Assembly: GCA_964035015.1 (NCBI GenBank)
Contig: OZ036002.1
Location: forward strand, 14,904,199 to 14,968,198
Length of the DNA stretch: 64,000 bases
Source of the DNA: Corallium rubrum
Taxonomy: Eukaryota; Cnidaria; Anthozoa; Scleralcyonacea; Coralliidae
Direction of reading: 5' to 3'
Shown here piece by piece: positions 1-53,732 of the stretch. Below the pieces are notes generated by a model. That model was not told the DNA's origin. It did no database searches and worked only from the letters and a program-made list of their open reading frames with translations. The first letter of the stretch is position 1. The number at the start of each line of letters is the position of its first letter. Made by a program: the position numbers and the translations under genes.

Positions 1-1116
1 GCTACTTCCAAATACACTCGATTACGGAGAGCTTAGAAAAACTAGCGGCCATCACCGCCATGTTTACGAAAATTATTTGCAGTCAGCAGCGTTATCGCTA
101 GTGGGCATGCTCCAAAAATTATTTGAAGCAGAAAATTATTAGCACTAAGTTATTTGCATGTGAATTAACCAATCAGAATGCGGGATAGAGATGACTGATA
201 GTAGCATTATTGTGCTAAAATGAGTTACTATTCTGGGTTTAGAGAATGATGTAAGTGACCGAAAAATAAGAGGTGAATTCTCATTCACCTCTGACCGTTT
301 TTTTTGAAAAACATTGTATTTAAGAAAATTTACAACTTAATCTGCTGTCACAATTTTTACAATATTCTTTAGTTACGGAGCTCTCCTGTTCGACTTTCTG
401 CTCCTCGCCCAAGTTTTTGTCGCAAGTGGGAAATAGCGCAATTTAGATTTGACTACCAGTACGAACTATACGACTGCGAGATTTGGTATTGTATACTCAC
501 CATCCTGTTTTCCATCTCGTACTGACGTAATAAACTCGCATTTCATCTTCGTACGAGTTTTAAAGAAAATTTCATATTGAAACGAGCGTCGACTACGAAT
601 TTATTACATCGATCGTGCAGCCGTAGTCGTAATCAGATCTAAAGCTCCATACAAGTAATTTTAGTTGGCTAGCCATTTCACAGAACTGCACCACGGTTAA
701 CGAAATTGCTGTTACTTAGTATAGTTAATTGTTGGTAGAAGAGATATTGTATGAATTTTGATTGAAGGTTATTTAGTGCTATGGGTTTAAGAGATTTTAA
801 AGCCAATACAGCCGAATGTTATAGACGTTATTTTGTTAAATTTTGTCAACCAAGAATTTCAAACACCTTATCTGCATTTGAGTAATAGGTAGCAGTTAAC
901 AAAACTCGTACTGTCCAGTTTGGGAGTTTTAAATATTTTACATAGATTATAGTTTTCTTCTTTGTAGTTGAACTTTTAGATTTTCTTTTCTGTGTTGGTT
1001 CTTGATTTTGTTGGAGCTTACAGAAAAGGTTTAGCCAAAATGTTAGAATTAAGGTTTATTTATACGTTAAGTGTGAATCGGGTAGGTCGGTAGGATGACA
1101 CACCATTGAGGTACAG
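1..1116. other. AT-rich sequence without recognisable gene
   Basis: I see no open frame with family features, no RNA gene and no clear terminal repeats here. It may be intergenic or part of an upstream intron of the death-domain gene; the sequence does not decide this. Confidence 0.4.
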
Positions 1117-1262
1117 GTAAACTCAGTTTCTGATTAGAATTAATATTAAGATTACGGTTTCTGGTTGGGTTAAAATAGATTTAGATCTCGTCTCTCTCTA
1201 CAGATTTGCTTCAAGTATGGGGTTAAATGACCCAGTTAATGTTACAATGCAATTACTAGAAA
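1117..1262. repeat. Interspersed repeat B, uninterrupted copy
   Basis: This stretch, from GTAAACTCAGTTTCTGATTAG to about TTACAATGCAATTA, recurs near 13690-14150 with high identity. There it is split by a MITE. This copy therefore shows the unoccupied insertion site, with a single CTTCAAG at 1209-1215. Confidence 0.7.
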
Positions 1263-1735
1263 TTAGCCTGCGTAGCTGGCGGTATTAGGGGGTTCGGGCG
1301 CGGGCGGTAGCGGGCAACGCAAAATACCGCCTTCCGAAAATCCACGTGTTTTTGAATTCCACCCACCGAATTTTAATAGAACCAATCAGAAAGTGAGCTA
1401 ATAATAGCTATGCATGAAGCATGCAGCCTGTTTGTTCGTTTCATTTCGACGATTTCGTCTAAGGACTTTGTTGTTTCAATGGTAAATAAATTGAGGCGGT
1501 GATCGCACTACATCCGCAAACGTTTCATCGGAGAGTTCAACTGCTGTGTAGTTAAGCGATTCAAGAGAAGAGATTTGATCGTTTATAAACACTCAAGGGA
1601 AAGATTACGAGTTCAGAACAGCCATCATTATAAATAATTCCAAATAGTGAAATAAAAGTAGCGTGCTGCGGAGGCAATGTTGCAACAACAATCGAAATAT
1701 GGTAAGGTTAGATATACTGCCAAAACAGAGACGTG

Positions 1736-1811
1736 GGAGTCTAACGTTTCGGACGAAGGCCCTTCTCTCTTTTTCTCTGACGAAGGGCCTTCGCTCGGAA
1801 CGTTAGACTCC
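1736..1811. repeat. Near-perfect palindrome (snap-back MITE)
   Basis: GGAGTCTAACGTTTCGG at the left pairs with CCGAGCG..CGTTAGACTCC at the right, and the middle AAGGCCCTT/AAGGGCCTT also pairs. It truncates the reading of the RecQ fragment next to it and encodes the RKREKGLRPKR tail seen if that frame is read through. No clear target duplication. Confidence 0.65.
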
Positions 1812-2037
1812 TAACATTCTCTATTTGCTTCGCCAAAGCATACACGGTAAATATCATACTTTTACTAAACCCAGTTGGCAAAATTGCAATCACATCTCTA
1901 CCAAGCAATAGATATTCAATTGGAATTCGTTGTTCACTCTTCAAAACGACGTGGCGACCGATAGCGTATAATTCAATACTTCCTCGATACATTCGCTTAA
2001 TGTCTGTAATATGATAACGCCTGAAATCAAAAATCAA
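1812..2037 (-). pseudogene. RecQ-like SF2 helicase N-terminal fragment
   Basis: The translation contains GRDVIAILPTGFSKSMIF, the Q-motif/Walker A region of RecQ-type helicases, which normally unwind DNA 3' to 5' using ATP. The consensus is LPTGFGKS; here the glycine before KS is serine, so the P-loop is altered. Only about 75 residues of homology remain. Helicase motifs II-VI are missing because the frame runs into the palindrome at 1736-1811. It lies within the TIR element at 1288-2157 and is most likely the relic of that element's helicase, not a host gene. Confidence 0.6.
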
Positions 2038-2478
2038 TATTCTGATCGATCAGAATTCTCCGTCACCCAGCGGACGGACCATTCAAAAACACATGGTTTT
2101 TAGGCAGGTGCATGTATTTCGCGTTGCCCGCCTATACCGCCCACGGGCGAATCCCCCAATAGTCCAGGGGCGGATTTAGCGTTAGTCAAATAAGTCATAC
2201 GACTAAGGTAGATTGGTTGAATTTATAAATTAGCCTTTATAGCGACCTGTGATTGGTTTGCCGAGTGTTCGCCGGATTTCTTTGTCTTCTCGACGGATTT
2301 AGACCCCTTGTATCACCCTTTCTGATTGGCTTAATTTTTCAATAGCTCTTTATCAAGAGCACGGATTGGTTTAGCGGCGTTTTACTTTGTAGTTTTCGAC
2401 TGATTTGTGGACTGATCAGTGATCGATTCTGACTAACTTGCGCTAGTATCACTACAAGCGGATTCTTTCGTTTGGAAC

Positions 2479-2733
2479 ATGGCTTTGCTTAATACAAACG
2501 TGATAGATCTTGATGTATTCGCTTTGAAGGACAACGACAAGATGTGTTGCGAGAGATTTATAAAACGGCAAGTTTAATACCGTAGACTCGGGGTCAACAA
2601 GCGAAGGATGCTTTGCGCAAAGGAGCATTTTTTATACCAAGATTGGCAAGACGCTTCAAAGGAATTTTGGCACTGAGATATACGTAGTAATATACGCCAA
2701 CAATGACAAGAAGAAACCCGGGGCTGCTCTCAG
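2479..2733 (+). pseudogene. Possible broken exon, family unknown
   Basis: An ATG opens a 32-codon frame (MALLNTNVIDLDVFALKDND..). After a frame change, a second stretch (..FAQRSIFYTKIGKTLQRNFG..IYVVIYANNDKKKPGAALR) runs to a good donor, CTCAG/GTAAGC. The lysine/arginine-rich LYxK..L...xGxEIYVVI pattern faintly recalls the MADS-like proteins seen in cnidarians, but I cannot support that assignment. It could equally be chance coding-like sequence. Confidence 0.22.
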
Positions 2734-2838
2734 GTAAGCAGATTTTTCTGCCTTAATTATTTTCTAGTTTTATTACGTATAAATGCTACATGGAATTTTA
2801 ATAATACGACAATAACAACCTTCGCCACGATTGAGACC

Positions 2839-3439
2839 CAGTGGCGTCGCTAGGGGGGTGACTGGGGGTGACTTGAGATTCTTCCAAATCAGGTGAGAAA
2901 CGTGTGTGTGGGGGTGGGGGGGGGGGAGTGTGTGGGGGTGGGGGGGGGTGGAGGGGGGTGGATGTAATGATTCCAAGTGCTCAGCTCACACCGCTAGCTG
3001 GAAAAATAGTTTACAAGTGTGTGAATGTGTTTTTGATATCTTTTCTTGCCTTAGTTCACTCAAGGCCGTATCCAGGCGGTTTGAGACGCCGGTACACCGA
3101 TTTGGGCGCCCAAACTAGGTCCCCGAAAATATAAACTATGTACTACAATCTGAGAAAAACCGTACAAGAATTTAAAAATCACCCCTCAGAATGTTAAAAA
3201 TCACATCTCAGAATCTAGGAAATGGCATTTCCGAGACTCTAAATTTCAAAATTTTCCGGGGGGGCATGCCCCCGGACCCCCTAGAGCGTTTCTACTATGT
3301 GTTATTTATCTATATAAAAACTATTATGTAGAATTAACATGAAGTACCAACAATTATGACGTCATATACAGATGACGTCATATAACGATGACGTCATTAT
3401 TTTGTCCTCCCCACTCTCCCAGGTCTGGCGACGCCACTG
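2839..3439. mobile_element. hAT-like MITE (CAGTGGCG ends)
   Basis: Left end CAGTGGCGTCGCTAGGGGGG, right end CTGGCGACGCCACTG. The CAGTGGCG..CGCCACTG type is typical of non-autonomous hAT elements. The expected 8-bp duplication is not preserved (TTGAGACC versus TTGGGTCA). The interior holds G-rich GGGGTG runs and GGGGGGGCATGCCCCCGG. The short ORFs read through it are not genes. Confidence 0.5.
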
Positions 3440-3649
3440 TTGGGTCACATGGCATGTCTTCAAATGAAAGGTGACCTTTATTATTGTTTAGAATCTTATT
3501 AATATGAGTGAAAATGATTTTGTTTGGCGCTGATAATTTGAATTTGAATCAAAATAATGCTATTTTTTGCCATGTGCAACAATATATTAAAAGTTCAGAG
3601 CGTTTTGTAGTTTTAAATGATTGATGAACCAGCTGTTTCCTTGGCTGCC

Positions 3650-3800
3650 TATTATGTACTATGTAATGTTGCATGCATGCGTGTACTCTTATACCACATT
3701 TTGTAACTATTTTATAAATATGCGTGAGCCCCCCAGATGAGCTTTTATTGCTCTTGGGGCAAACGTAAGAAATATAAGTTTAAATAAAATAAAAAATTAA
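3650..3800 (+). repeat. Probable 3' end of a CR1/L2-like LINE
   Basis: GAGCTTTTATTGCTCTTGGG followed by CAAACGTAAGAAATATAAGTT and TAAATAAAAT resembles the hairpin plus short-repeat 3' tails of CR1/L2-type LINEs. No ORF remains. The following 500 bases are AT-rich with degenerate TATTAATTAT repeats and nothing else I recognise. Confidence 0.35.
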
Positions 3801-4324
3801 TATAGCTAAGTGTTTGTAGCGCAAGTAACTCAAATTCATTCAGGGTTTTCCCTTCTTGTATTTGTTTATATGTATTTATTTATTTATTTATTAAGTTTTG
3901 CCACAAGGTTCAACAAGAATAGTAATTAATTAAAATTAAAAAAACAAACAAAAAACCCCCCAAAAAACAAAAAAAAAACCCCCAACAAACTTCATTACTC
4001 ACAGTGAAAGTTAAGTTATAACGTAAAATCTAAAATAATGTGGCAGGGTTGCCGCAACAGCAATCGCCAATTACTGCGGTCCCAAGCAAAAAGGAAAGGC
4101 CGTATTAATTATTTGCGTTGTATTAATTATTTTATAAGTATTAATTATTAACCATTAATTATTGTCAAATATTAATTATTAGTTTTTATTTACCAATCAT
4201 TAAGTATTAATCGTCAGTCGCCAACTACAAATTATCAACCACCAATTGCCAATAATTTATCCAACAATTATCTTAATTAGCAATTAACAGTCAATATCCA
4301 ACAATCAGCAGCCAACGATCAATA

Positions 4325-5873
4325 CAACCTCGTACCCAGGGTCTTATCTCCGCTCCCCCGCTCCCGCCCACCGCTGCGAAAAGACCCTGGTCTGGTCTGG
4401 TCACGTGTCACGCAGACTTACTGGGAGTGGGCTAGTAGGATTTGTACTTTTGTAGGAACTATAAAGAAGACCGTGGAATAATCACAGAGACAATGTTTGA
4501 AATGTTAATTTCTTTTATTGGTTGATTTATATATAGCACCTTCCAATGTGTTATTTGAAGTTTGCTTCACCAAACCGTCTTGGTTTTAAAACCGTTTTCA
4601 AAGAACAATGTTTGTTGCACCGCACTTGAATTGATTGTTTGCATTCTAGATCTGTTGTAGTTGCAGAATTAACTACCAGACGAAATTACACCTAAATAAC
4701 AATGAGAGTATTGGTAAATTACGAACACATTAGGTATTATAAGGAATAGAAGAATGTGTTAAAGTGACTAGAGCAAAGTTTCAATCGAAATGTACTGACA
4801 CCTTGGGCTTTGATGTATATTTACGAAGTAAACAGTAGTTATGTGATTGCTATATTATTCAACATTTAATGATTTTTGATAATATGTTGAGCACTTTTTT
4901 ATTATTCTGACTGCTTTATGCACTCACGGCGCAATTATATCTATTTTTAAAACAACAAGTGTATAAAAGAACAACGCAATAAAAACAACGTTCAACAATA
5001 GGTTCATTAGTGAGTGACTTCGATTCATATTAAAAACCTTGTTGTTGTTTTAATCAAAGGGGAATTGATATAGACTAGTGATATTAATATGTTGTTAAAA
5101 GGTCAGTGTTTCCTTGATCAACATGACGGCATCACTTCCCAAACAGGAACGGATTTTCAGCTCTGATCATGGTTGCATGCGGTATTTTTTTTGCTTCCGC
5201 TGTATTCACATAACTGTTGCGTTTACTACAAATTTAAACCACTTTTAAAACAATAATAAAATATGTCACTAACCTTAGCTTTTGTTAAAAGCTATAGGTC
5301 GAGTTTTGGCGATCTTGGCGATGTTAAATCACAAGGACTTTCAGATTTCCATATATTTATTCACAATAATGATGACATTCCAAATCCTCTCTTTTGGCAA
5401 ACGGCAGGCGACAGGCGTAACAGCTTGGCGTCGTAACTGATGAAGTAAACATTCATTTCATGTTCGTCGGAAGTTCAGAAAGATATAGGAAAAATATTCA
5501 CAATCACTGACAACTTTTCAGTAAAGTGTTGCCGTACTGTTGCGAAGCGCCTTGCCGTTTCTTGGCCTTACGGAACAGCGAAGTGTCTGAGGGTCTTTAA
5601 CCAAATGTTTTGCCAATGTTTTTTCGTCGGTATATTATATTATCGTCGGCATATATCGGTGTTTACTTTACAGTAAGATTCTCTTGCGACTTGCCTCCAC
5701 CAGTCTCAATAGTCTATGCGTACAATGATGACAAATCCTAAGTTCTCTAACCCCTCCCTAACGACAAAGTTGAAAAATATCCCAGAATATGGGATACACG
5801 TGACCAGCCCAGACCAGGGTCTTTTCGCAGCGGCGGGCGGAGCAGCGGAGATAAGACCCTGGGTACGAGGTTG
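4325..5873. mobile_element. Non-autonomous TIR element with 9-bp target duplication
   Basis: Ends are CAACCTCGTACCCAGGGTCT and its complement, and the inverted repeats extend about 70 bp. CGATCAATA stands directly outside both ends (4316-4324 and 5874-5882). The interior has no open frame with family features. A 9-bp duplication with long TIRs suggests a Mutator-like mover. The 519-bp element at 61825 has the same CAACCTCGT terminus and also a 9-bp duplication, so both belong to one family. Confidence 0.8.
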
Positions 5874-5882
5874 CGATCAATA

Positions 5883-5998
5883 ATTAACAATTAATCAATT
5901 AATCAACCAATCCTTTAATTAATTAATTAATTAAATCAATTAATTAACTAATCAATCAACCAATCAATCAACCAACCAATCAATCAATTAATTAGACA
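5883..5998 (-). repeat. LINE 3' tail of short AATCAATTAATT-type repeats
   Basis: Degenerate octamers (AATCAATC, AATTAATT, AACCAATC) lie directly beyond the 3' end of the minus-strand reverse-transcriptase frame. This is the usual position of the simple-repeat tail of CR1/L2-like LINEs. Confidence 0.5.
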
Positions 5999-7540
5999 TT
6001 AGATACAACAGCAGATCGCACTAATAAGACTGTGCGCTGTGTTGCATATCAAACAGATGGTTTTCCATGACCTCGGGTCTTCTGGGTCGTACAGCTGGTC
6101 CACTGCTGCTTGGTAGTAAAGCTGAAGCTGGCTCTTAAACTGTCTAAGAGTGGTTCCCTTTCTACGCATTTCGCATGGTAGAGTGTTCCATGTTCTACAC
6201 ATTCGTGTAAAGAAAGATCGTTGGAAGGTGACTGTTCTACATTTGCGAGGACGGAAGTGGAGAATATCGGGGTTTGAGTTGTTTCTTGTTGTTCTGAGTG
6301 GCATATAAGGAGTAGGTAGGATGTCAGGGTTAATTTCGAGTAGGTTGTTCACAGCTTTGAAGAAGAAGGTCAAGTCTAGATATTCATGCCAGTAGGATAT
6401 TGGAAACAATTGTAAAGACAGTAGTCGTTGTTTGTAGGTTGTCGCGGTGCGAAATGGTAAATTCAGGATAACTTTAGTAGCACGGCGTTGCACTCTTTCG
6501 ACACGTCTGATTAGCTCAATAGATTGCGGTGACCACACCTGGGTCGCATATCCGAGGTGTGGACGAACAATAGCAAGGTATATTGTTCGTCGAACTGAAA
6601 TGTCAGTGATCTCCCCCAAAAGAGCGACGGACGCAGCCAAGAAATCTGTTCGCAGTTGTAACTTGGGCAGTCATGCGTTACCCATACACCAAGATCACGC
6701 TCTGCCTCAAGCTTTTCGATGGTCTGCCCTTTGAGAGTGTATTGATGATACACTGGTATCTTTCTACGAGTGATCGTTTGGCACTTAGTTTTCTGCTCGT
6801 TGAAGTTTAATCCAGAAGACAGTGACCAATCGTTCAGTTTGTGTAGGTCTTCTTGGAGGAGATCCGCATCCGAAGAGGAGTTTATGGTCTTAAACAGTTT
6901 CGTGTCGTCAGCAAAACAAGCAATGGATGAAGACGTCACAGAGTCGTGTAGGTCGTTAACGTAGAGTAGGAAGAGAATTGGACCAAGAATAGATCCTTGT
7001 GGGACGCCTGATGTGACTGGAAGCGTAGACGAAGTAGCGCCTGGAATAGTGACGCGCTGTTTGCGTCCCGATAAGTATGAACAAAACCAGGAATGGAGGT
7101 TTCCATGGATATTTATGTCTCTTAGTTTTTCAACAATCACGCTGTGGCGAACTCTATCAAACGCTTTACTCATATCCAGATAGATTACGTCCGTCTGTTT
7201 TCCCAAGTCAAGTTGATGGCCAATGCATTCCAGAACATGTACGAGCTGTGTGGAGCAAGACTTTCCAGGAATGAATCCGTGTTGGTTTGGGTTGGTGTAT
7301 TGTAACAAGTGGTCTCTTATCTTGGTCAGTATACAACGTTCCAGCAGTTTTGAAATGTTCGAGAGTAGGGAAATTGGACGGTAGTTCTCAACGTAATCTT
7401 TATTACCTTTCTTAAATACAGGAACGATATTACTTGTTTTCCATTCATCAGTAAAGGTACCAGACTGCAAAGATAGGTTGAACAATAAACATAGCGAGGT
7501 GGCAATCTGTTCAGCAGTTTCCAAAAACCAGGTAAAGATA
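5999..7540 (-). pseudogene. LINE reverse transcriptase, 5'-truncated and frameshifted
   Basis: The reverse transcriptase of a jockey/CR1/L2-like non-LTR retrotransposon copies its RNA at the target site. Visible in order on the minus strand: FKKGNKDYVENYRPISLLSN (fingers), VIYLDMSKAFDRV (motif A), TSGVPQGSILGP (motif B), CFADDTKLF (catalytic FADD, motif C), and then the thumb. Near 6640 the frame shifts by one, and the conserved C-terminal region (LGYATQVWSP, RRVERVQRRATKVI) continues in the next frame to 5999. The endonuclease domain and ORF1 are absent; homology begins at about LETAEQIATSLCLLFN. This is a dead 5'-truncated copy. Confidence 0.85.
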
Positions 7541-15864: not shown

Positions 15865-15998
15865 CTCTGCCCACGCCGCCGAAGCAGTCTACGAATTGAG
15901 ATAATCTACGAGAGAACCAGTCAAGATATGTAGCAAGCGCGTCGCTGGGGAATGCAATATTTGTTAAATGTCATATCAACCACCACAGCGTTAATGCC

Positions 15999-16805
15999 TT
16001 GGTAGACACTGGTGCAGCTGTCACGATAATTCATTTTGATATCTTCAATAAGACCAAGGACGGAGACTCTAAAATGCGGTCGTCCCATCAACCGATCCTT
16101 GGAGCGAATAATCATCCCCTAGACATTTACGGAGTCACCGAAATCAAATTAAGAATTAAAGACGTTGAGGTTCAACACCAGGCATACGTATGTAACGACC
16201 TAGCTCAGGAGCTATTGCTAGGAGCAGACTTCCTGAAGGAAAATAACTGCATTGTTAACTTTGAAAAAGAAACAGTGATAATTCGAGACAAAGAGGGTAA
16301 GATGGGTTGTGCGAATTATCGGAAAATTTGTCGTGTCATGGTGGCATCATCGACTACAATACCACCACGGTGTGTAGTGAACGTCAAGTGGAAAATGGAG
16401 CAGGCAAATGTGATTGGTGCAACGACTGGTGTCTTGGAACCCGAGCAGAGATTCGAAGAGCGATACTCCCTCGGTGTAATCAAGGTAATGGCGACGGTAA
16501 AAGAAGGTGGAATCCCTGCCCAGCTATTTAATCCTCACCATAAAGCAGTAAAGATTTACAGAGGCAGTACAGTTGGAAATCCATGTCCAGTGCTAGAGCC
16601 AGGAGAAGGCGAAAACCTAGCGGAACCACAAACATGTTATCACCTATGCCCGAGTTCATGCGAATCAAAAAGCAAGGAAGGGACCTCATCGAAGACGACC
16701 TCGCAAGGAGATAATCAAAAGAGAAAACAAGCAATGGCAGAGATGTTCAAAATAGACAATCCTAATTTGTCAACAGAAGAGAGGAGACAGTCTACGAGAT
16801 ATTAA
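15999..16805 (+). pseudogene. Gypsy aspartic protease region
   Basis: VDTGAAVTIIHFDIF holds the catalytic DTGA of retropepsins, and ELLLGADFLKENNCIVNF matches the second conserved loop and C-terminal strand. The protease would cut the Gag-Pol polyprotein. The frame is open for 268 codons but is out of frame with both gag and the reverse transcriptase; the linking region is frameshifted. Confidence 0.75.
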
Positions 16806-16959
16806 GTCTACACAGCGCAGTAATTTCAACAGGAAAGACTGACCTTGGAGAGTTAAAAACAGTCACTCAATCAACACAGGAGAATCCAGACCAATTAGAT
16901 TTCCAACACGCAGATTACCGTATCATCGGAGAGAAGAAGCACGGAAAGAAATCGAGGCG

Positions 16960-18131
16960 ATGCTTGCTAGTGATGTTATCGAAGCATCTGATTCCCCTTG
17001 GTCGGCCCCAGTGGTGACGGTGAAAAAGAAAGACGGATCTCAACGATTTTGTGTGGATTACCGAAAGTTAAACGAAGCAGCAAATAAGGATATTTACCCA
17101 CTACCAAGGTGCGATGATGTCCTGGAAGCCCTCTCAGGTGCGGTTTATTTTACTCACCTGGACCTCGTCCGTGGTTACTGGCAAATCGGAGTGGATGAAA
17201 AAGATCGAGAGAAAACGGCATTCTCCACTCCAGAAGGTCACTTCCAATTTAAACGCATGCCTTTTGGACTGACTAACGCTCCGACTACATTCCAACTCGC
17301 CATGAACACCATTTTGAGCGGTCTTACTTGGACGGACTGTTTGGTCTACTTGGACGGCATCGTAATATTCTCGAAGAATCGTCAAGAACACAATCGAAGG
17401 CTAGAAGCGATGTTGCAACGTCTAGAATCCGCCAGGTGAGACAGGAGACCGTGATCTTGGGCCATGTCGTCAGCCAGAAGGGTGTGGCCGCCGACCCGGA
17501 AAAGATAAAAGCGTTGAGAGAATATCCAGCACCACATGACGTATCCACACTTCGTTCGTTCTTGGGATTTGCTGGGTACTACAGACAGTTCGTTCCTAAT
17601 TTCGCCGATGTCGCAGCTTCACATTACGACCTCGAACGCAAAGGAATCAACTTCAAGTGGACTACACACTGCCAGAAAGGGTTTGACACGCTACGGGATC
17701 GTTTGACGAGTGCCCCAATTTTGACTTATCTGGATTTCGACCAGCCGTTTATCGTGGACACCGATGCCAGCGACACTGGGATAGGCGCTGTACTTTCGCA
17801 AGTCCAAGACAGGAAGGAGAGGGTCATGCCTACGCAGCTAAATCTTTAACAAAACCGCAGCGTAATTACAGCACGACTAGGAAGGAGCTGCTCGCGTTAG
17901 TCTGCGGAACAGAATATTTCGAGACGTATCTTCTCGGAAGAGAGTTCCAAGTACGAACAGATCACAATGCATTAAATTGGCTAAACAACTTCCAACAACC
18001 CAAGGGTCAGATGGCTCGCTGGTTGGAAAGATTATCGGAGTTTGATTTTGTAATTGAACATCGTCCAGGGCGACTCCATGGATTATCGCGCGTGCCATAC
18101 ATGGAAAATGAAGAGGAAGACGAGGAGTCAA
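16960..18131 (+). pseudogene. Gypsy reverse transcriptase and RNase H, active site mutated
   Basis: Reverse transcriptase motifs: SPWSAPVVTVKKKDGSQRFC, FCVDYRKLNEAA, YFTHLDLVRGYWQI (motif A aspartate), FKRMPFGLTNAPTTFQ (motif B). Motif C reads VYLDGIVIFS instead of YLDD: codon GGC at 17356-17358 replaces the second catalytic aspartate. The thumb continues out of frame near 17440 (VILGHVVSQKGVAADPEKIK, TLRSFLGFAGYYRQF). RNase H shows FIVDTDASDTGIGAVLSQ, a further frame change at about 17826, then STTRKELLALVCGTEYF and VRTDHNALNWL. The enzyme would be inactive from motif C alone. Confidence 0.85.
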
Positions 18132-18239
18132 CCCAAACTGTTGATGGCATTATTGGTCTGAATTCACCTATGCTCACGACCTTTAACATCACCAGAACCG
18201 GTGGAGACAACTGGGCTTGCCGCTGGAGTAACAACGAGC

Positions 18240-18860
18240 TGAACCTCTTCCAACGTGAGGATCCACTGCTCAGCGAAGTGATTAAGTGGGTAAAGTCAGG
18301 AGCCAGACCCGACAGAAAAGAGATTGCCGGCGCTTGTCCAGAGAAAGGAAGCATGTGGAGTCAGTTTGGACGACTGAAGTTGATAGAAGGACTGTTGTGT
18401 CGAGAGTATGAGCCGGAAAGTGGAAATACGAAGTTTCTTCAGCTATGCCATCCAAGGAAGATCGTTCCTGAAATACTGGAGTTGGTACATGCTCTACCTA
18501 CCTCGGGCCACTTAGGATTTTTCAAAACATGCGAGCGAATCAAGTCGTGCTACTACTGAAAGGGCTGGAGAGAAGACGTGGAGATCTACTGCTGACAGTG
18601 CAAGGAATGTGCTTGTTGGAACCCACCGAGCAAGAAATTGCGCGCACCACTTGTAACCAGTCAGTGTGGCTACCCCATGGAAAGAGTGGCAATGGATGTC
18701 ATTGGACCTTTACCAAGAATTGAAAGAGGCAGCAGATTTATCATTGTAGTAAATGATTACTTCGTCAGATGGCCAGATGCATACGGGTAGCCGACCACGA
18801 AGCCAAAATATTGGCGCAGAAACTTATTGATGAATGGATTTCCAGGTTCGGGGTTATGCA
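18240..18860 (+). pseudogene. Gypsy integrase, zinc domain and part of core
   Basis: The N-terminal HHCC region is present (ELVHALPTSGHLGFFKTCER) and is followed by a frame end and a TGA within the CxxC part of the finger (GAGATCTACTGCTGACAGTG). The core begins MERVAMDVIGPLP and IIVVNDYF in other frames, then stops. The same TGA is present in the duplicated copy at about 21345. The remainder of the catalytic core is missing; foreign sequence begins at about 18885. Confidence 0.75.
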
Positions 18861-18884
18861 GTAGAAGATTAAGAAGATTTCTAA

Positions 18885-19190
18885 ACGATACAAGGATTAC
18901 TATGACTGTAATAGTTCAAATACGAGACGGAGGACTTTACGGGGATTTCAAAGTCCAAGTGCCTATTGAAAATGCGAGCCGAAGGCGAGCATTTTTAATG
19001 TACGACGACTTTGAAATCCCGGTAAAGTCCGTAGTAATTTATATATTTTCAAAGTCCTAGGACTTTGAAATATTTCAAAACGTCATGACGTGATCAGCTA
19101 GATGGATCTTCCTCCGGTTTCAAAACACTAATTAAACATTAATTTCTTTTGTTTTTGGTTCATGCATTATTAATGAGTTTGAGACCGTAC
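18885..19190. repeat. Palindromic insert in the integrase region
   Basis: GGGGATTTCAAAGTCC / GACTTTGAAATCCC and a nearby CAAAGTCCTAGGACTTTG form inverted repeats. The first half recurs at 21669-21800 in the duplicated copy, so the insertion preceded the duplication. The second half (about 19037-19282) is absent there. Confidence 0.55.
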
Positions 19191-19194
19191 AAGC

Positions 19195-19821
19195 ATGGAA
19201 CTGACGTACAAAGTTGGAGATACGGTATGGCTATATCAACCAACCGTCAAGAGCGAGGGGATTGTCCAAGAAACTTCCCAGACCGTGGCAAAGACCATAC
19301 ACAATTGTGAAGAGGCTATCGGACGTGGTATACCGTATTCAGAAGGACGGAAAAAGGCAGGAAGAGAATTGTACTTCAATCGACTCAAGCCTTGTCTACT
19401 GTCGAAGGAAGAGAAACCAACGTCCACTAAGGAGAAAGAGAAGCTGCAGTCGACCATCAAGGACCAGGATGACCAACAAACTGCGGAAGGGAGTGACGAG
19501 TCAAGTGACAACGAAGAGGAGTGGAGTGAACCATCCCGAAACAACTGCACTCGATGTAGGAGGCAGCGTAGCATAGAACGTGAACGCACCAGTCAAATGA
19601 CTGATACTTTAGATCAGATGGACCAAGCAGCGGGATTGCAACATTTGTCACCTAGTAATACAAGCAGTGATACACCGAGGGGATCGGAGTTTGACGAATC
19701 GGAGGAGTTAAGAGAATCGCCGGGGGAAACTGAAAAAGTGGGCCAACAGACGAGACCACGTAGAGCAAGAAGAGCCCCTGCATGGATGCATGACTATCGG
19801 ATAAAATCAAATCGGACATGA
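19195..19821 (+). pseudogene. Gypsy pol C-terminal tail
   Basis: YKVGDTVWLYQPTVKSEG is the start of the integrase C-terminal region (VGDxVWLYxP..K.G). A one-base change carries the expected continuation (LSKKLPRPWQRPYTIVKRL) into the next frame. A low-complexity acidic and serine-rich tail follows and ends PRRARRAPAWMHDYRI, a common end of such polyproteins. Confidence 0.65.
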
Positions 19822-43154: not shown

Positions 43155-46100
43155 ATGGCTTCCCACAGTCGTTTTGTAGAAATTTCTGTTGAGGAAATTG
43201 AACAAATAAAGGACAGTGCAATTCCACAAAACACAAAACTAGCAACAAAATATGGGATTAAGCTTTTCAAAGGTAAGGAGTCTTTTTGCAATTAATTTAT
43301 TAACAATTTGTTTGACAATTTACAACTGACTGTCAAAAAAGAGCGATGGGCAAAATTACTTGTCTTTTTTAACTATTTTCTACACTAGAATGGTTCTCAC
43401 ACCAAAACGAGTTTACAACCGAGTTCGAGAACATGGAAATTGATGACCTGAATCAATGTCTATCAAAATTCTACATGTCTGCAAGAAAAAAAGATGGTTC
43501 TTACTACAAAAAGGCAACCTTGATGTCATTGCGAGCTGCGTTGGATCGCCATCTTCGCTCACCACCATATAACAAAAAGTTCTCAATTTGTGACCCGGTC
43601 GCCTTTCAAGAAGCAAATAAAACATTGCATTCCTACCTGAAACATCTCATGGGCACTGGAAAAATTGCTGGAACTGTCCACAAAAATCCCTTGACACCTG
43701 AAGCGGTACAACTCCTTTTCGAGAAAGGCGAACTTGCTTGCGCTGAAACCCGTGATCCTCGCTGTTTAATGCAAACAGTTTGGTTCTACATTTCTTTGTA
43801 TTTTGGCAAACGAGGTTGTGAAAACCAGAGGGCAATGAAGAAATCGATGCTACGTCTTTGTACAACAGGCACTGGAGAAGAGTACTTCGAGCTCAATAAA
43901 GATGAACCGGGGACGATGCTTTCAAGCAAAAATCACACTGGCTGTCTCGAAGGCACGGAAGACCACTCGGACGGCAAGGTCTTTGCTCTCACAAAATCGC
44001 CAAGATGTCCAGTAAATACAATCAAAGCGTATTTAAGTCACCTAAATCCTGACATGGACGTGTTGTTCCAGCGACCAAGACATCCTTCTTCAAGGTTCAA
44101 CCCAAACGAAGCAATAGTTTGGTACGAGAAAAAAGTACTCGGCCATAACTTGCTCAACAACATGATGCGAGATATGTCACAAAGAGCTGGAATATCGCCT
44201 TACTATACCAACCATTCGCTGCGAGCCACCACCGTTACTGTTTTATCGTCCAACAACGTTGAAACACGAAAGATTAAAGCCGTAACTGGTCACAGAAGCG
44301 ATACAAGCATAGAAAGTTATTGCGCCAGACCAACTCTAAGCCAGTTTAAGCAGATGTCGTCGACGCTAAGTTCGTTTGTTCGTGGCGAAGAAAATACAGC
44401 AGCCACTTCGTCTTCGTCAATCATCCCAACTCCAGATGCCTCTCGTGAACATCCAGCAGAAAGCAGTCCAACAGTCGCAAACAGTACTGTATCCTTTTGC
44501 AGAAATGAGGCAAATATTCTTCAAGCACATGGTGTGAGGTAGACTTGCTACAAGTCGACCTCTTGTTTGCTTGACCTCTTGTTTGCTTGACCTCTTGTTT
44601 GCTTGACCTCTTGTTTGCTTGACCTTTTGTTTGCTTGACCTCTTGTTTGCTTGACCTCTTGTTTGCTTGACGCAGCGAGCGCGAGACGTAGTCGCGCGCG
44701 AGCGAGAGGTCGACTTGTCGAACTTGCTTCGCGCCATTTTTGGCGACCCAAAATCAGGTCGCTGAATTAATTATCTTTTCGACCAGTCAGAATACAGCGT
44801 AAGATAAACATGTTAATCATGTCGATTTCACTCGATGTCTTACAGTCTTTACAAATGGCTACGATTTCAGAAGCGATTGATAAAGCAAAGCAGTCTGTTG
44901 GCTACTCGGAATTAAGAGAGTATCAACGGCAGACTATTGAGGCTTATCTCTCTAACAGAGATGTGTTCGTTTCGGCGTCAACAGGAGCTGGGAAAAGCCT
45001 TACGTTTCAGTTAGCGCCATATGCCTTCGAGCATTTATCAGCAAACAACAAATCACTGGTTCTCGTGATCGTTCCATTGGTTTCGCTGATGAAAGACCAA
45101 GTTAACGATTTGGTGAGTCGTGGAATTCCTGCTTCTTATGTTGGGGACGACTGCTCGGAAGATCAACTGAGAGATATCTTGGATTTCAAGGCCAGAATTG
45201 TGTTTGGGAGTCCCGAAGCCCTTCTGAACACTTACCGCCATATATTTCGCCACTTGAAAAGCAACTTAAAAGCCGTGTTTGTCGATGAAAGCCATTGCAT
45301 TGCGAAGTGGTAAGTTTTTACTTTACATTTAATTGAGTAAAATCCAAACGTGGCAATGTCGTTTGCTTCCTCTGGTTTGCTTCTTTCCATCAGTGTAGAG
45401 CAGTAATATTATTGTAATTGTTCTCGAAGTTTTAGGGACCGTTCATTATTTATGCCCAGGGTTGGTACCGAAGAGAAACTAGAAGCAGGGTAATTTTTTT
45501 AGTTACCCAACCTCAAAATGGTTTAAGATATTTTTTACCCAACCCACTATTAAATACTAATTCCCTACCTTTTATAAAATATCTTTGCAAAACAAAATGC
45601 ATACTAAAATTAAGTATACACATACTGCAAATACTACAGTACATGAATTGTGTCTGTAGTGTCAATACTGTTCATTAGATAAATGTATTTTTATTTATTT
45701 AAACTTCCGTTTTGATAATAGTTAGAAGAACAAAGAAAAAAGTTAACATACAAAAAAATATTGGTAGTGTATACCTGATACTTCAAATTTATATTAGTCT
45801 GCAAATGCCAGTCTCCATGATTCCGCACTTCGCCCAGACCTGGTGGGTCTTCATTCACTTGATTCAATTGCTCATCATTTTCCTCATCACTTTCATCCAT
45901 ATCATTGAAGACAAATGTTATTTTGCCCAACCCATGAGTTAGTCAAAAACTGGGTTACCCAACCCATTTATCTTCGGTACCAACCCTGGGCATAAATAAT
46001 GAACGGTCCCTAATAGTGGTGTATATGCGAAAATTTTTTAGTGAAATGTCCTATCAGAGCATTAGAAAAAAAACATTTTGCAATTTACAATTGAAATTAT

Positions 46101-49100
46101 TATTTTTAAAAACGCATTTAAATTCCTTTCCATTGACAAGAGGGAGCAAATCACCCCTGTCATAGGGTGTGGCTTGCACATTATGGTTATACTGTAAATG
46201 CCAAATGATTTTTAATATTCAGCCAAGTGTAATTGTAATTTTCATGTATTTTTCACTCTATTCTAAATGGGTTACATCTTGTATTAGCTCTAAATGTGTT
46301 GCAAAACCGTTTTCTTATGTAAAATGAACAGAGACGTTGACTGTAATAGTAAGTGAAGAATGTGGTGAAGCTTTTGAAAATGACATTTTTCCACCTGAAA
46401 AACTTGTGTGTCTGCCTCCGCAATGGAGATATTAAGTCCCTTCTACAACAACCCAATTTTTAATGACATGCTGTATATTTTTTTTGTCAGGGGAAAAGAC
46501 AGCCTCACAGAAGAAGCTTTTAGAAAAGACTATGGAAGACTAGCAGAGCTGCGTTCATTGGTACACAGGGAAGTTCCTTTTATAACACTCACTGCAACAG
46601 CAACAGGAGCAACACGAAAGAAAATTATCAAGGATCTGTGTATGAGGGATTGTGTAGAGATCATCGGTGACCCTAACAAGCCAAACATACGCTATACTGT
46701 AAGGGATGTCGATCACGAAAACTTGTATGACACTTTTAAATCAATTATTAATGAATTAGAAGAAAAGCAGGTGGATGCTACAAAGGTGATGGTGTTTTGT
46801 CGAAGAAAGGAACATGTAAAAGAACTGTTTGAACTATTTACCAATTGTCTCGGACCAAAGGCCTATTATAGGCCCACAGGAAAGGAGCCCATGGATGACA
46901 GATCTCGACTATTTGCCATGTATCACAAGAAAACACACAACCTTGTAAAAAAGACTGTAGAGACTGAGTTTTGCAAAGAGAATGGAACTGTACGAGTTGT
47001 GTTTTGCACTATTGCATTTGGGATGGGTGTAAACGTCAAAGGAGGAAATGTGGTTGTTCACCTGGGACCATCAAGTGGGCTTGATGACTATCTTCAGGAA
47101 TCTGGTAGAATTGGGCGCAATCAAGCGAGCTCCCATGCAATATTGTTAAAGTACAAAGGCTGTACCCGTAGCCGCAATATCTCCAAGCAAATGAAAGTAT
47201 ATGTCAGAAATCAAACAGACTGCAGGAGGGTTTTACTTCTCAAAGAGTTCACCTGCAGTATTCCATTACCAAACACTGTGCTTCATTCCTGCTGTGATAT
47301 ATGTACAGGAAAGTGCAAGTGCTTATGCAAATGTCCTAATAAAGAACAGTGCTCTTGTTCCGAGACATGCAATCAGAGTGATCACCAGTCTATGTTTGAA
47401 AAACTGATGAGCTATACAACTACCAGTTCTTTGTTGCATGGAGATACCAAGGGGAAAAAGCTTAAAGGGGAAATGGCAAAACAGTTAAGAGACAATCTTT
47501 TGGAATATCGTCTTAAACTTTCAGATAACCTCAAACATGAACAGTTACTGACTGGCTTAGATTTGGCTACTGGTTTCACAAGAACTTTAATAGATTCAAT
47601 TGTTGAAAGTGCAAAGGAACTTTCCAGCATTGAAATGCTTTTAGAGAAATTCACCTTCTTTGAACGGAAACAAGCTGAACATGTTTGGCAATGTCTGTGT
47701 GACTTAGATGACAGCAGTAGTGATGACGATGATGATGATGAAACGGAAGAAACAGAACTAGGGGCTAGTAGTTCTGAAGATAGTGACAATGGGCCTTTGT
47801 TTCCAAGATGCAGGCACCCATGCTTACAAGACAGCTCTGAATACAGTGAATGAAAGTATTGTACTTTTTAATTTTTTTAAATATATACATGTACATTAAC
47901 AGCATAACTCAAAGTTAGCAAACGACTACGTCGTGCGCTCTTTGCATCAAGCAAACAAGAGGTCGACTTGTAGCAAGTCTAAACTCAGAGGTATAATTTT
48001 AGAATTTCTTTATATATACATGTAGTTGTTACTGAACTGGCTCTGGTTGTTTGATACCCTAACACTGTACGGTGTAGATCAAATATTTATGAATTAGTTA
48101 TTGAAAATGGTAATCTTGCTTCAAGCCTACATGGTAACATATTGTACATTTATCTCAAATTTTTGGTAAAAAGTGATGAAATGTAAATAATGTTGACCAA
48201 AAATAAATTTGAATTAACCCATTAAAGATGTATGCCATTCATCTGTATTTGAGCAGACTTTCTTTATCTCTTTCATTTAGGTACTGTACAACCAAACATA
48301 ATAATATTATTGAATAATACTTATGTGAGTCTCACATTTGAGATATTTGTACCATAGTGACTCTATTTGAAACCATTGTATTTAAAAATGTCAAATTTTA
48401 TAATAATGTTTCTTGTTGAATTTTTTCAGTGACTTGCCAATCCATGTCTTCAGCTTTTCACAGTCAATTGAGTCAAGCAAGTTGTTAGGCATGTCCTCAA
48501 ACGCTGAATGTGCTCGTCCTTGTATATTACTGAACACGTTGGCTGGGAGCAAATGGTCCACCAGTGCTAAGACATCTTCCTCTGTAGACATCATAGTGTG
48601 TTTTCCTGATGGTTTTTTCACTTGTGTTGTGTGATCAAAGTTATGTAAAATGTCACAAGAAGGCATTGTGCTTCGGCCAACACGTTTCGTAGTCTTCTCA
48701 GTGATTTCCCCACGGAAACTTTGGCAGTCGGTCTTGAATGATTTGTTATCGTGCTCGATTTCCAAATCCATCGGATGGTTGGTGTCTACTTTGCCATGGT
48801 GGTTGACAAAGCGGTTCCAGATCAGAGAGTGGGCAAGCCTAGGGCTTAAGAGGCAGTTCACTTGGGCTTGAAGCTTGAGCATGGCAAATGCATACTTCGG
48901 GCAGTTAGATACTTTGAAGTACAGGTAAAAATACTTGTATATCCTGATTAGGCGAGGACCATCAGCAAGTTTGATGGCGTCATTATGGTTGAGACGAAGA
49001 AGCAGCATCACCAAAAGTTGATGTGTATAGTTTCGAACCTTGTCTTCGACTTCACCTTGCAAATTTTCGTTTGGTAACCTTCGAGATTCTCTAATGTCAT

Positions 49101-52100
49101 GCTTTTCTTCTTCATGTTTCTTTAGAGCACTTGGACGTTTATACGCTTTGCCACAAACACTGCACTTCAAATCATTACTTAACCAAGCAGTAGCTGGTAA
49201 CTCTGGGACACTGTAAATGACATTCTCATCAATGAAATCTGAGATGACCTTGACTGCAAACTCATTCTTGCTTTCCTCATCCACTGCAAGACCACTGTAG
49301 ACGTTTCTAGTGCACTTGTCATCCACAGTTGCCATACCAAAATGTACGAGTGCCCCATTTATCAAATATGCATCAGTTACCTTGTCAAGAAACTCGCTGG
49401 CAGCATAATACCGATTATGCGGATCATTTGACACATTTCTAGCATCGATGGCATTTCGCATAGCATACAGTGTACCAGCATCTCTTGCTGATCCAGTGCT
49501 GTATAAGTGATTCCATATTACCTAGAAAACCATATATATCACATGTTATCATGTCAAATATTGTTTTAACCCATTAAGTTACAGGACTCTCCTCTTGACA
49601 AGTAAAATTGTCTGGCGCTAGACAAAGTAAAAGAATAAAGTAGGGTGAATTGCAGCTCAATAGGTTAAGGTGCTAATTGTGCCCTGTTGTGCCATATTTG
49701 TTTTTTTTTCACTTTTTCTGAATGTCATACAACATTACTCTGTCTAATGCCAGATGATTTTACTCTGTCTACTACCAGTATGTAAAGGGAAGACTGTTGC
49801 ACCAGTTTAGTGAGTTAAATTTAGCCCAATAATGGTTTTGGTACAGATATTTTTATCTGCATACATTATGTACTTATTGGATATATAGGTGTACTCAAAA
49901 ATTTACAATTTAATTATTATTACTTTCATCCACTCCATTTGCGTGTGAAAGTCCTCCGTCTTGGGAATAAGGCCCTCTAACCTTGCTGAAGGAGTCCTTG
50001 CATCTTGCATGGCCGACTGAGCTTCCTTGTGCCTTTCAAAAGTTAAATAGTCCCCGCCACTCAAAACCTTGACTGGTTTACTTTCTTTTGAGCTCTCATC
50101 ATGTCCTGGAACATACTTGTGCAAGAATGTAACAATGTCAATCATGTCCTCTTCGTATTGTTCATTCTTGTGTAAAACTCCAAGGTTTACCTGGTAAATA
50201 GTTTAAAGCCAATTTATCATACTGTAGTTCCTTTGTAGTATGGGCATTATTAGTGACAAAATATTAGTCATGCTATTTATCGGACACTTGACTTATACAA
50301 CTCTGTCCACTTTGATTATGGGCAGAGTTGTATACGTCTATTGTCCAAGAGACATACGGATATTTTGTTGTGTGCCACAGTTCAATTATTGTTATGGCAT
50401 TATCTAACCTTTTCCGTTTTCATCCTTGTTTTTTCCATGTTCTCATGAGTTACACAGGGAGGTAGATGGTCCTTGAGCCAAGACAAAGCAGGAATGTAAT
50501 GGGCCCACTTGAGACCCACAAGCACAATCATCTCTTCCTTTAAGATGGTTTGTTCCTCAGGACTGGGAATAAATGATGAAAATGGTACTTTATTAACATC
50601 CGCACTTGGAACATTGGAAGGAAGGTGATTTGAAGGAATTCTATTCTTGAAAGCCACTAACTGAAACAGATGATGGTCCTTGTTCCTGTTCTTTACTGTC
50701 ATTTGTCTTGTGCGACAGTTTATGTCTACATTATCTCCGGTAAAAGAGTATCCAGGATGCATGGTTTTCCTGTGTGTTTTGAGTTTCAACTTGCATTCCT
50801 CAATAAGCTCGGTGTTGTCAGCAGCTTCTACTTTCTTCAACATTTCTAACATTTCTTGTTCTAGGTTTTCCCCTCTTTCAACTTCTTCTTTCCATTCCAG
50901 TAACTTCTTGTCAAAGTCCTCTCCAAGTTTCTCCATCAAAGTAGCTGTAGCATCATAGCCGAGACATATGTTGAGTGCTGATAACCTTGATAATAAAAAC
51001 ATTTAATATGAACATATAAGTGTGATACAACTTGGTTTCCACATGCAACATGCAAGAGTTTTTACAATACGTCTTCAGCAGACCTCATACCAGTGGTGGA
51101 TTAAGGGGGGCTGACTGGGCTGTAGCTAGAGGCCCCTGGATCCCAGAGGGCCCTGGGACACCAACAGTCTTATAAACAGCTAACTTAATATGCCCAATCT
51201 GAAAACCAGCCAGGGGCCCCAGGTCACCTTAATCTGCCCCTGCCTCATACAGGTTTAAATAATTGCCCAATTTATCTAATTGTCCGATTTATCCAATTGT
51301 ACAATTCATCTTACTTATAATTAAATCTACATAATTTAACATAATAATTATTCCAACAAACCTCTTAAATCCAACCTTTTTTAGACCACCTTTCTTCAGT
51401 ACAACTGATTTTATGCGCCTTGTCGCATCAAGGTCTGAATTGAACACAGATATCAGCTGACATCCAGCATCTAACATTGGAGGCAAGATGGCTTCATCCT
51501 TCTTGTGTATGTTCCGTGTTTGAGATGGGTTGCTTACTGATGCAGTGAGAAACTTGTGAAACAGTGGACACTTATCATTCAGTTCATTGTTCACTTCATC
51601 CCATTTAAGGGAGATTAGTTTGTCCTTTTCTTTTTGTCTCAACAAAGATGGCTGGGATAAGGTGCACAGTCCTGTTAATTCTTTGGTTATTTGCTTTGCA
51701 GCTTGTTCCAAAATGTACTCATTGCATTCCTCAATTTTGAATACAGCAGCAGCAAAGGTCTTAAGGGGATTTAGGGCAAGCTGTCTTGCAAGGGCTGCCC
51801 TCTCTTCACACAAATTGACTCTTCTAGTTGGACTGCTTGGGTAGTTGATGATGATCTATAATTAAAACAGACAAAGAACTCAGTACAATTTGTGAATTTA
51901 GGCTCGGCTTTGTGGCTAACAATTGAACAACAATATATTCCCAGGCTTCAAATTAAGTAATTTACGATGTAGTGCAATTGCAGCATTTGTCATTGGGAGG
52001 AAACGCTATAAATATGAAAGGTTTAAAATTTGCGAGCAATCTTGTCAAAAGAAACACGTTACAGTCTTCTTCAAGTATAAGCATATGGTGGCAGGGTTCG

Positions 52101-53732
52101 AAATAACGTTCAGAAAATATGCCTAATTTTGTCGGCTGTTTTTTGTAGGTCAAAATTTTTGCCGGCTGTTTCCCAAGCAGCAAAGTTACGTTCTGGACAT
52201 AGGCCCAAATAATGTATTGTAAACCAAATACTGGTTTCTTTTCGATCATATACAGAGAAATCAAAACAAATTACCATAATTCTGATCTTGGCAAAAGCAA
52301 TTTCGCCGATAACCCAAAGTTTAGTTATATTTTGAAATGAGAAATTGCCGGCAAGGTCCTAAAACTGCCGGCTGCTATTTCGAACCCTTGGGTGGTCAGG
52401 ATTGATTTTGGGCATTATCATGTGGGCAACGTATTATTAGTTCTTGCTTTTATATTTGCATTTTTAAATCTCCAACACGAAAAACACCTTTAAAATAATA
52501 AACCGATTGCGGATTGGCGAAGTATGTATTAACCAAGACTGCACAATACTCAATAGACAGTATTAACTCCGTCTTCGTTTCGGAAAGTACTTTGTCTTTA
52601 TTTAATAGTTGTTTTGCATAAGTATACGTGAAAGCCGGTGTGACATTTTGTCTTCCAATAAAGTTTCTCAAAAAAAAAATCGCCCGTCATCTACTAAATG
52701 CAAAAAACCCAAGAATTACAAAGTAATAAAAAACATTTTTCATTAATGTTACATAGAAAATAAGGTCGAAAATGAAAATCGCACCATCATTTGGACACAC
52801 CGATACAACATTTTCTCGACAAATTAGATTAGGAAACACGCATTACAAACAAATCGGTTTACCTGAGTCAAATTGTTTTGTTCCCCATCTAAATCACTAA
52901 CATCAACTTGTGAGTAAGCTTCTCTTGTTCTTGGTATTGGTGTAACACTGTAACTTTCCGACTCAAACAAAGCACGTTTACTAATATGAGTTCGAACCTC
53001 ACCGTCCTCATTAGCTGGGTGAAATCGAGAAAGCCGCTTCACCGACGTTATTTTCCTCTTTTCTCCAATCGATTCAATAGATGACTCAAACTTTGAGCGG
53101 ACGTCAATAATCTTTTTTACCAAAGTCTCGTTCTTGTCAGCACAATTTCTGCACAAGATATTCGTGAGTAAAGCGGCAACGGCGAATTCTTGCCCGAGTA
53201 ACAATTCCAAATTCAAACACGCTTTAGTTTTCCTATCCCCAGCAACCAGTCTTCTTCTATAGTCCTTGTTTTCAATATCTTTTGCGCAGAGCAAACAAAT
53301 TATATCTTTAGATCCAGGAGATACGCATACTCGATCAATTGTTTTCGTTGGAGTATTTTCCGTCATTTGCAATTGTCACACAGGACAAAGCAAAGCCACA
53401 CACGTAGTAATTATTATAATCATGGCCGCCCCCTTTTAATTAATAACTAAAAATTAACAGTTTTGGCGCGAAACGCAAATAAAAACACAGCAAGTTCGAC
53501 AAGTCGACCTCTCGCTCGCGCGCGACTACGTCGCGCGCTCGCTGCGTCAAGCAAACAAGAGGTCAAGCAAACAAGAGGTCAAGCAAACAAGAGGTCAAGC
53601 AAACAAGAGGTCAAGCAAACAAGAGGTCGACTTGTAGCAAGTCTAGGTGTGAGGTGTCCTGAATCAATTCTTCCATCTGGTACTTTCCAGGGATGTTCAT
53701 TCACATTTAACATCAATATGAACAACAACTAA
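43155..53732 (+). CDS. Crypton-type tyrosine recombinase, split by a 9.1 kb transposon
   Basis: Exon 1 is 43155-43272 (MASHSRFVEISVEEIEQIKD..), with donor CAAAG/GTAAGG. Exon 2 starts at 43389 after CACTAG (EWFSHQNEF..) and reads open to 44539; the original frame resumes at 53655-53732 (CPESILPSGTFQGCSFTF..) after the inserted element and its target duplication. As it stands, a TAG supplied by the transposon's first bases ends the protein after 423 residues, 25 short of the original 448. Catalytic residues are intact: R181 (FGKRGCENQR), H315 and R318 (TNHSLRATT), H341 (TGHRSD), Y350 (SIESYC). The family joins DNA through a phosphotyrosine. The enzyme core might still fold and act. Counts are mine from the reading frame. 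Confidence 0.85.
44540..44728. repeat. Left TIR with seven 16-bp subrepeats
   Basis: After the 20-bp tip come seven tandem GACCTCTTGTTTGCTT units (one with TTT for TCT), then a CpG-rich GCGCGAGACGTAGTCGCGC palindrome and GAGGTCGACTTGT, which is complementary to the tip. Each terminus can therefore fold on itself. Confidence 0.9.
44810..47853 (+). CDS. RecQ-like DNA helicase of the 9.1 kb transposon
   Basis: Exons 44810-45309 and 46491-47853 (donor AAGTG/GTAAGT, acceptor TTTGTCAG/GGGAAA, phase 2 on both sides) give 620 residues. SF2 motifs in order: YQRQTIEAYL; Walker A ASTGAGKSLTFQ (GKS 61-63); VPLVSLMKDQV; DESH (159-162) for the DEAH box; CIAKWGKDS made across the splice; TLTATATG (motif III); VMVFCRRKEHV (IV); TIAFGMGVNV (V); QESGRIGRN (VI, 369-377). 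A cysteine-rich block (CCDICTGKCKCLCKC..) and an acidic tail follow in place of the usual RecQ-Ct. A second ATG at 44855 is an alternative start. It probably unwinds ends or intermediates during transposition. A MITE sits in its only intron. Confidence 0.9.
45435..46010. mobile_element. MITE with perfect 39-bp TIRs in the helicase intron
   Basis: GGGACCGTTCATTATTTATG and on to GGTACCGAAG is exactly complementary at the two ends. TA stands on each side. The perfect arms imply a recent insertion. Interior CCCAACC/GGTTGGG-type short repeats. Tc1/mariner-like by its TA target. Confidence 0.85.
47919..47981. repeat. Third, internal copy of the transposon terminus
   Basis: GACTACGTCGTGCGCTCTTT, one CAAGCAAACAAGAGGTC unit and the tip GACTTGTAGCAAGTCTA, in the orientation of the right terminus, 66 bases after the helicase stop codon. 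Together with the left TIR it brackets the helicase gene alone. Confidence 0.85.
47982..48390. other. Spacer between convergent transposon genes
   Basis: AT-rich. It must carry the 3' ends of one or both transcripts (AAATAAATTTG, AATAATATTATTG), with no clear polyadenylation choice. Confidence 0.5.
48391..53372 (-). CDS. DDE-type transposase (DUF6589/Academ-like) of the 9.1 kb transposon
   Basis: Five minus-strand exons: 53372-52863, 51855-51362, 50985-50409, 50190-49924, 49521-48391, all with GT..AG introns and matching phases (0, 2, 0, 0). They total 2979 bases, 992 residues. The N-terminus has a ZAD-like Cys pair set (C26/C29, C74/C77). Proposed catalytic acids: D419 in YSFTGDNVDI, D574 in LSGGDYLTFERHKEA followed by LEGLIPKTEDFH, and E872 in MDLEIEHDNK. 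A C2H2 finger (CSVCGKAYKRPSALKKH, about 736-757) lies between the second D and the E. The GDNVD, GDxLTxER and xEHxN motifs match DUF6589 proteins as I remember them. It would bind the TIRs and cut and join the element. No defect is seen. Confidence 0.85.
51091..51242. mobile_element. hAT-like MITE in a transposase intron
   Basis: Ends CAGTGGTGGATTAAGG and the complement of CCTTAATCTGCCCCTG. CCTCATAC flanks both sides (51083-51090, 51243-51250), an exact 8-bp hAT-type duplication. It lies in the 50986-51361 intron. Confidence 0.85.
52092..52390. mobile_element. MITE with CAGGGTTCGAAATA ends in the first transposase intron
   Basis: The right end reads TATTTCGAACCCTTG. TTGCCGGC/GCCGGCTG motifs repeat inside in both orientations. 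GGTGG occurs outside both ends, but I cannot fix the duplication. The end type is hAT-like. Confidence 0.65.
53489..53645. repeat. Right TIR with five 16-bp subrepeats
   Basis: Complement of the left TIR with five instead of seven subrepeat units. The CpG-rich palindrome GCGCGACTACGTCGCGCGC is preserved. Confidence 0.9.

Follow-up and report, generated by a model that had tools for sequence, protein, structure and literature searches.

The stretch of the Corallium rubrum genome analysed here (contig OZ036002.1; 64,000 nucleotides, hereafter the window) carries a DNA element of 9,106 bp at positions 44540-53645. It encodes a RecQ-like helicase and a transposase, and the two genes are convergent, lying tail to tail (Table 1). 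The element begins with TAGACTTGCTACAAG at its first base and ends with the complement of TAGACTTGCTACAAG at its last, and the tips TAGACTTGCTACAAGTCGACC are identical at both ends, as the first-pass annotation of this DNA had described. An inverted-repeat search returned arms of 140 and 100 nt at 99%, and within the 140-bp arms 2 of 140 bases differ. The exact 9-bp duplication that had been claimed for the element is also borne out, as GGTGTGAGG stands on both sides of it; by chance, two 9-bp stretches at given positions would be identical in about 4e-6 of pairs.

Table 1. Coordinates of the element, its genes and neighbouring or nested features in the window
Feature	Position	Strand	Basis
Frame interrupted by the element, matching DUF3504 and Phage_integrase	43373..44539	+	Pfam
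9-bp target duplication, left copy GGTGTGAGG	44531..44539		sequence
Left inverted repeat: TAGACTTGCTACAAGTCGACC tip, array of 16-bp units, inner part	44540..44728	+	inverted-repeat search
Helicase exon 1 (DEAD part)	44810..45309	+	splice model and Pfam
Short inverted-repeat element with 47-bp arms within the helicase intron; absent at the counterpart point of C109	45432..46013		copy comparison
Helicase exon 2, including stop (Helicase_C, then a cysteine-rich segment by eye)	46491..47853	+	splice model and Pfam
Third transposon end, right-hand type, between the genes	47915..47981	-	inverted-repeat search
Absence of about 400 bp between the genes relative to the C109 copy; the two ends of the stretch are also in C37	48232..48232		copy comparison
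Transposase exon 5, including stop (C2H2 finger, E870)	48391..49521	-	splice model
Transposase exon 4 (D572)	49924..50190	-	splice model
Transposase exon 3 (D417)	50409..50985	-	splice model
Transposase exon 2	51362..51855	-	splice model
299-bp insertion in transposase intron 1, GGTGG duplicated	52092..52390		copy comparison
Transposase exon 1 with ATG; paired cysteines, shared with P0001	52863..53366	-	splice model
Right inverted repeat, two 16-bp units fewer than the left	53489..53645	-	inverted-repeat search
9-bp target duplication, right copy GGTGTGAGG	53646..53654		sequence

The element interrupts the DUF3504 frame listed first in the table. Its first codon in that frame is TAG, which ends the frame, and when the flanks are joined with a single copy of the duplication the frame stays open for 25 codons more, as would be expected if this tyrosine-recombinase-like frame had been intact when the element inserted. 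Elsewhere in the window, at 15900-19818, there are long open frames that look like a retroelement polyprotein by eye.

Spliced from its two exons, the helicase has 620 aa without an inner stop, and the suggested Pfam check matched both expected domains, DEAD (3.4e-24) and Helicase_C (1.8e-13). In a sequence search of solved chains, the best hit was 1oyw, which we take to be E. coli RecQ (E 9.7e-37); it aligns to residues 26-386 and spans the exon junction, and the next chains are those of RecQ, WRN, Q1, BLM, Q4 and Q5. Judged by these best solved relatives, the helicase core is of the RecQ type, in line with the two-exon RecQ-like helicase of the first-pass annotation. A cysteine cluster seen by eye may be the RecQ zinc-binding segment, and Pfam gave no RecQ_Zn_bind match for this protein at E 0.1. 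The closest named relative is from the octocoral Paramuricea clavata (64% over 50%), and other helicases reach up to 76%.

The transposase gene does consist of five exons with an open frame, whereas the length of 992 aa originally given for its product probably needs a small correction. Sixteen combinations of splice sites leave a frame of more than 900 aa open (963 to 994 aa), one of them of 992 aa, but a product of 990 aa appears more likely, because the relative P0001 continues across the last junction of that model (MKVIWNHLY versus MCVLWHQFY). P0001 has 932 aa and aligns with the transposase over 99% at 33% identity. In both searches for relatives the best 7,994 candidates, those sharing most words, were scored, and among these the protein search with pair alignment gave no further relatives. 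The closest named one is again from P. clavata, with 44% over 50% of the query. Pfam assigned residues 470-922 to DUF6589 (8.4e-38), which supports the proposed type of transposase, and the only other Pfam matches were to zinc-finger models. The C2H2 finger noted earlier is present, but it scores below the Pfam cut-off (20.5 versus 25.2 bits). The paired cysteines of exon 1 may have a role in DNA binding.

The three acids put forward as catalytic, D419, D574 and E872, become D417, D572 and E870 in the 990-aa model, and they are conserved wherever a relative extends to them. D417 lies in GDNVD, outside the DUF6589 match, D572 in SGGDY and E870 in DLEIEH; all three are kept in P0001, and P0002 keeps D572 and has no residues at the positions of D417 and E870. 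The genome contains at least 107 DUF6589 matches (from the best 102 of 377 candidates; some genes give two), and 20 DUF6589 loci were fetched with 1.5-kb flanks. For the alignment of these 20 loci the longest frame was taken, with the 9 plus-strand loci used and the 11 minus-strand loci left out. Seven of the nine rows reach the last motif (L042, L043, L047, L052, L055, L056 and L059), and each of them has E at position 870 and A or L at position 868; L042 keeps all three acid motifs. In the other two rows the frame is that of a helicase (L049) or stops short of the last motif (L051). An AlphaFold2 model of P0001, computed from a 7-row alignment (six further rows), had a mean pLDDT of 38.2 and was too poor to judge the fold. 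The conserved acids are compatible with a DDE triad, and D417, D572 and E870 are the putative catalytic residues.

The pairing of the two genes is found elsewhere in the genome. At 3 of the 20 DUF6589 loci (L042, L049 and L057) the end of a convergent RecQ-like helicase lies downstream on the opposite strand (tblastn, 6e-16 to 2e-17), and at the other 17 tblastn detected no helicase within the 1.5-kb flanks, so that one farther out is possible. Helicase_C exceeds the Pfam cut-off beside DUF6589 in L042 and L049, and RecQ_Zn_bind does so in L042 and falls below it in L049 (24.8 versus 25) and L057 (22.1). A similar-looking frame in L053 had no significant match by tblastn or Pfam. Since the transposases of L042, L049 and L057 are only 22 to 27% identical to that of the window in long matches, the tail-to-tail combination of helicase and DUF6589 transposase looks like an old layout.

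A search of the 474-Mb genome with the whole element, in which the best 39 of 1008 candidates were scored, revealed among these one other near-complete copy (C109), answering the question of a second copy that the first-pass annotation had raised. It differs from the window copy by 74 substitutions in 8,161 compared bases (0.9%) and is flanked by a duplication of its own, CTATTCGAA. In it, helicase exon 2 has undergone rearrangement, and 1-base indels occur in two transposase exons. The parts of another two-gene copy (C37) lie about 18 kb apart, its left end was not seen, and several of its exons are broken. Because the window copy alone of the three has both frames open, any present activity of the family would rest on this one copy.

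The ends of the family were inspected at 32 places: the window, all those from the best 40 of 49 candidates, and the C37 copy (33 fetched stretches represent 31 places, to which the window was added). An exact 9-bp duplication is present at 19 of the 32, the window included. Both tips are within three mismatches at 17 places, with the C109 copy read across L009 and L010; 16 of the 17 have the exact duplication, L017 being the sole one without. At three further places (L019, L030 and L031) one tip is good, and an exact duplication is found at the second, damaged end. The remaining 13 places comprise single ends, broken copies, L017 and a tandem array. No strict motif is apparent in the first 16 duplications, and their G+C content is 54%, compared with 39% in the window. 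The recent activity suggested by the first-pass annotation thus gains support from the low divergence of the C109 copy and from these exact duplications, and the family appears to have moved recently in the C. rubrum genome.

Seven of these copies (L013-L019) are deletion derivatives that have right-hand sequence in common and retain only parts of both genes. In six of them (L013-L016, L018 and L019) element positions 743 and 7339 are joined; the join was seen directly in L014, L015, L016, L018 and L019, and in L013, which is split further by another insertion, it was recognized from pieces. Five of the seven (L013, L014, L015, L018 and L019) have an exact 9-bp duplication. A common join together with separate duplications fits a single deletion product that would have been multiplied in trans. 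L017 is without the left block; on its right it terminates in a short copy of 82 bp that has both tips but lacks a matching duplication. A further derivative, L020, has a different join (631 to 7354). In addition, ten copies (L021-L029 and L041) are palindromes, 97 to 274 bp long, each with an exact 9-bp duplication. By eye their centres differ from copy to copy, as if each had formed independently from two joined ends. The tandem array mentioned above (L040; C18:12330000-12331400) has a spacing of about 56 bp, resembles the end-repeat region at 71-77%, and is tipless. Among viral contigs, 31 stretches matched the search pattern and none encoded a relative.

The window copy had been described as having no visible defect. 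This holds for its coding frames but not for the rest of the element, which has acquired two intron insertions and a third end and has about 400 bp missing; no exon is touched by the insertions or by the absence. The 299-bp insertion has an empty site in L012 and L014 and is filled in the C109 copy (L010). It starts with CAGGGTTCGAAAT and recurs at no fewer than six other near-identical places (99-100%; best 39 of 1008 candidates). Of the short element in the helicase intron, the whole-element search, with the best 39 of 1008 candidates scored, found at least 18 further near-full copies, and the C109 copy contains, further on, a fragment of 74 bp that matches the inside of this short element without a difference.

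As to classification, AcademH was reportedly described by Kojima in 2020, in a paper whose title mentions animals and fungi, and DUF6589 is presumably the Academ transposase. The element is very probably a complete copy from a family of AcademH-type DNA transposons; it is of an already described kind, of which this family is one more member. The first-pass annotation had suggested that it might be AcademH-like, and the helicase, the DUF6589 transposase and the duplications at 19 of 32 places agree with that name. Compared by description only and not by sequence, it fits AcademH on both features tested, an encoded helicase and 9-bp duplications, and shows no difference in them. In its accessible text, PMC10045372 gives duplications of 9 or 10 bp for AcademH and of 3 or 4 bp for AcademX, and ties these to a helicase and a nuclease, respectively. 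Therefore, the 9-bp duplication, which had been thought unusually long for Academ, is expected rather than odd. It is by itself not diagnostic of AcademH, however, because the same portion of that paper gives duplications of 4 to 10 bp for MuDR. AcademH is the name used for helicase-bearing elements of fungi in the accessible part of PMC10799480, and that of PMC10294476, on bivalve transposons, lists Academ elements and mentions no helicase. If the AcademH assignment holds, AcademX belongs to the same superfamily as the element, but differs from it in the nuclease reported in the available text of PMC10045372, whereas Pfam detected none in the two proteins here, and in its 3- or 4-bp duplications, as opposed to 9 bp.

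There is a small chance that the element instead represents a separate, yet unnamed superfamily, which would combine a DUF6589 transposase with a RecQ-like helicase and be like AcademH in gene content and duplication length only. The nuclease of AcademX is of the XPG type. Of XPG_I there are 43 matches, and where one shares a contig with any of the at least 107 DUF6589 matches the two are no closer than 45 kb, the smallest distance seen, so that no link between DUF6589 and the nuclease-bearing Academ type emerged. The word DUF6589 was not found in the literature searched, and the likeness to AcademH is one of description. What speaks against a separate superfamily is that a helicase together with duplications of 9 or 10 bp is given, in the part of PMC10045372 at hand, for AcademH only.

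Within an element of the AcademH type, the third end between the genes is probably a worn relic of a short palindromic copy that landed there. Its 35 bases at 47947-47981 are identical to the outer right end and are kept in C37, and the 67-bp stretch to which they belong is flanked by AACTCAAAG (47906-47914) and AACTCAGAG (47982-47990), a near-duplication equalled in 0.84% of 20,000 shuffles. A third internal end and 16-bp end arrays are features seen in the family of the window element. The identity of these 35 bp to the outer end, and their retention in C37, could also be accommodated by a composite, in which the helicase unit at 44540-47981, with two ends, is mobile alone: the transposase would recognize the ends at 44540 and 47981, the helicase module would be mobilized or shed alone, and the family would gain or lose the helicase by its choice of ends. 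We consider such nesting very unlikely and rejected it, as there is no match between the sequences that flank 44540 and 47981, no helicase-only copy is present among the best 39 of 1008 candidates of the whole-element search, the C109 copy is without the third end, owing to rearrangement, and the near-duplication fits a worn short copy. Nor would the third end be a bar to movement of the whole AcademH-type element, because it is present both in the window copy and in the C37 copy, which occupy separate genomic positions.

Kolobok elements duplicate a 4-bp TTAA, and TTAA was not seen here, where the duplications are of 9 bp and varied; likewise, the Pfam hits of the transposase were to DUF6589 and zinc-finger models and to no others. 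A Kolobok element of the KolobokH kind was therefore rejected as having almost no chance of being correct, even though the accessible text of PMC9587614, which also states that KolobokH occurs only in fungi, describes RecQ helicases alongside DDD/E transposases in KolobokH and in Kolobok-1_CCri of a red alga, the latter with its helicase on the complementary strand, an arrangement also seen here.

The ends, the 9-bp duplications, the two open genes and the spread of internally deleted copies are direct observations, and for an AcademH-type element they suggest the following course of transposition. The DUF6589 transposase would bind sites in the inverted ends, probably in the end repeats, free the element and join it to target DNA at a stagger of 9 bp, to be converted by repair into a 9-bp duplication. 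The RecQ-like helicase would most likely unwind DNA at the ends, or aid repair or copying during transfer. Such movement would be of the cut-and-paste rather than the copy-and-paste kind.

The role of the helicase in DNA transposition is not settled by the accessible portions of PMC10045372, PMC9587614 and PMC10799480. An intact two-gene copy whose ends are clear, accompanied in the same genome by short non-autonomous relatives, offers a test bed for the function of a RecQ-type helicase in this process. It also connects DUF6589 with a transposon that bears a helicase, and the genome contains at least 107 DUF6589 matches. Many of the loci behind these matches (L042-L061 and others on the list) show long open frames and, by eye, a C2H2 finger, and together they form a large and diverse set of transposases.
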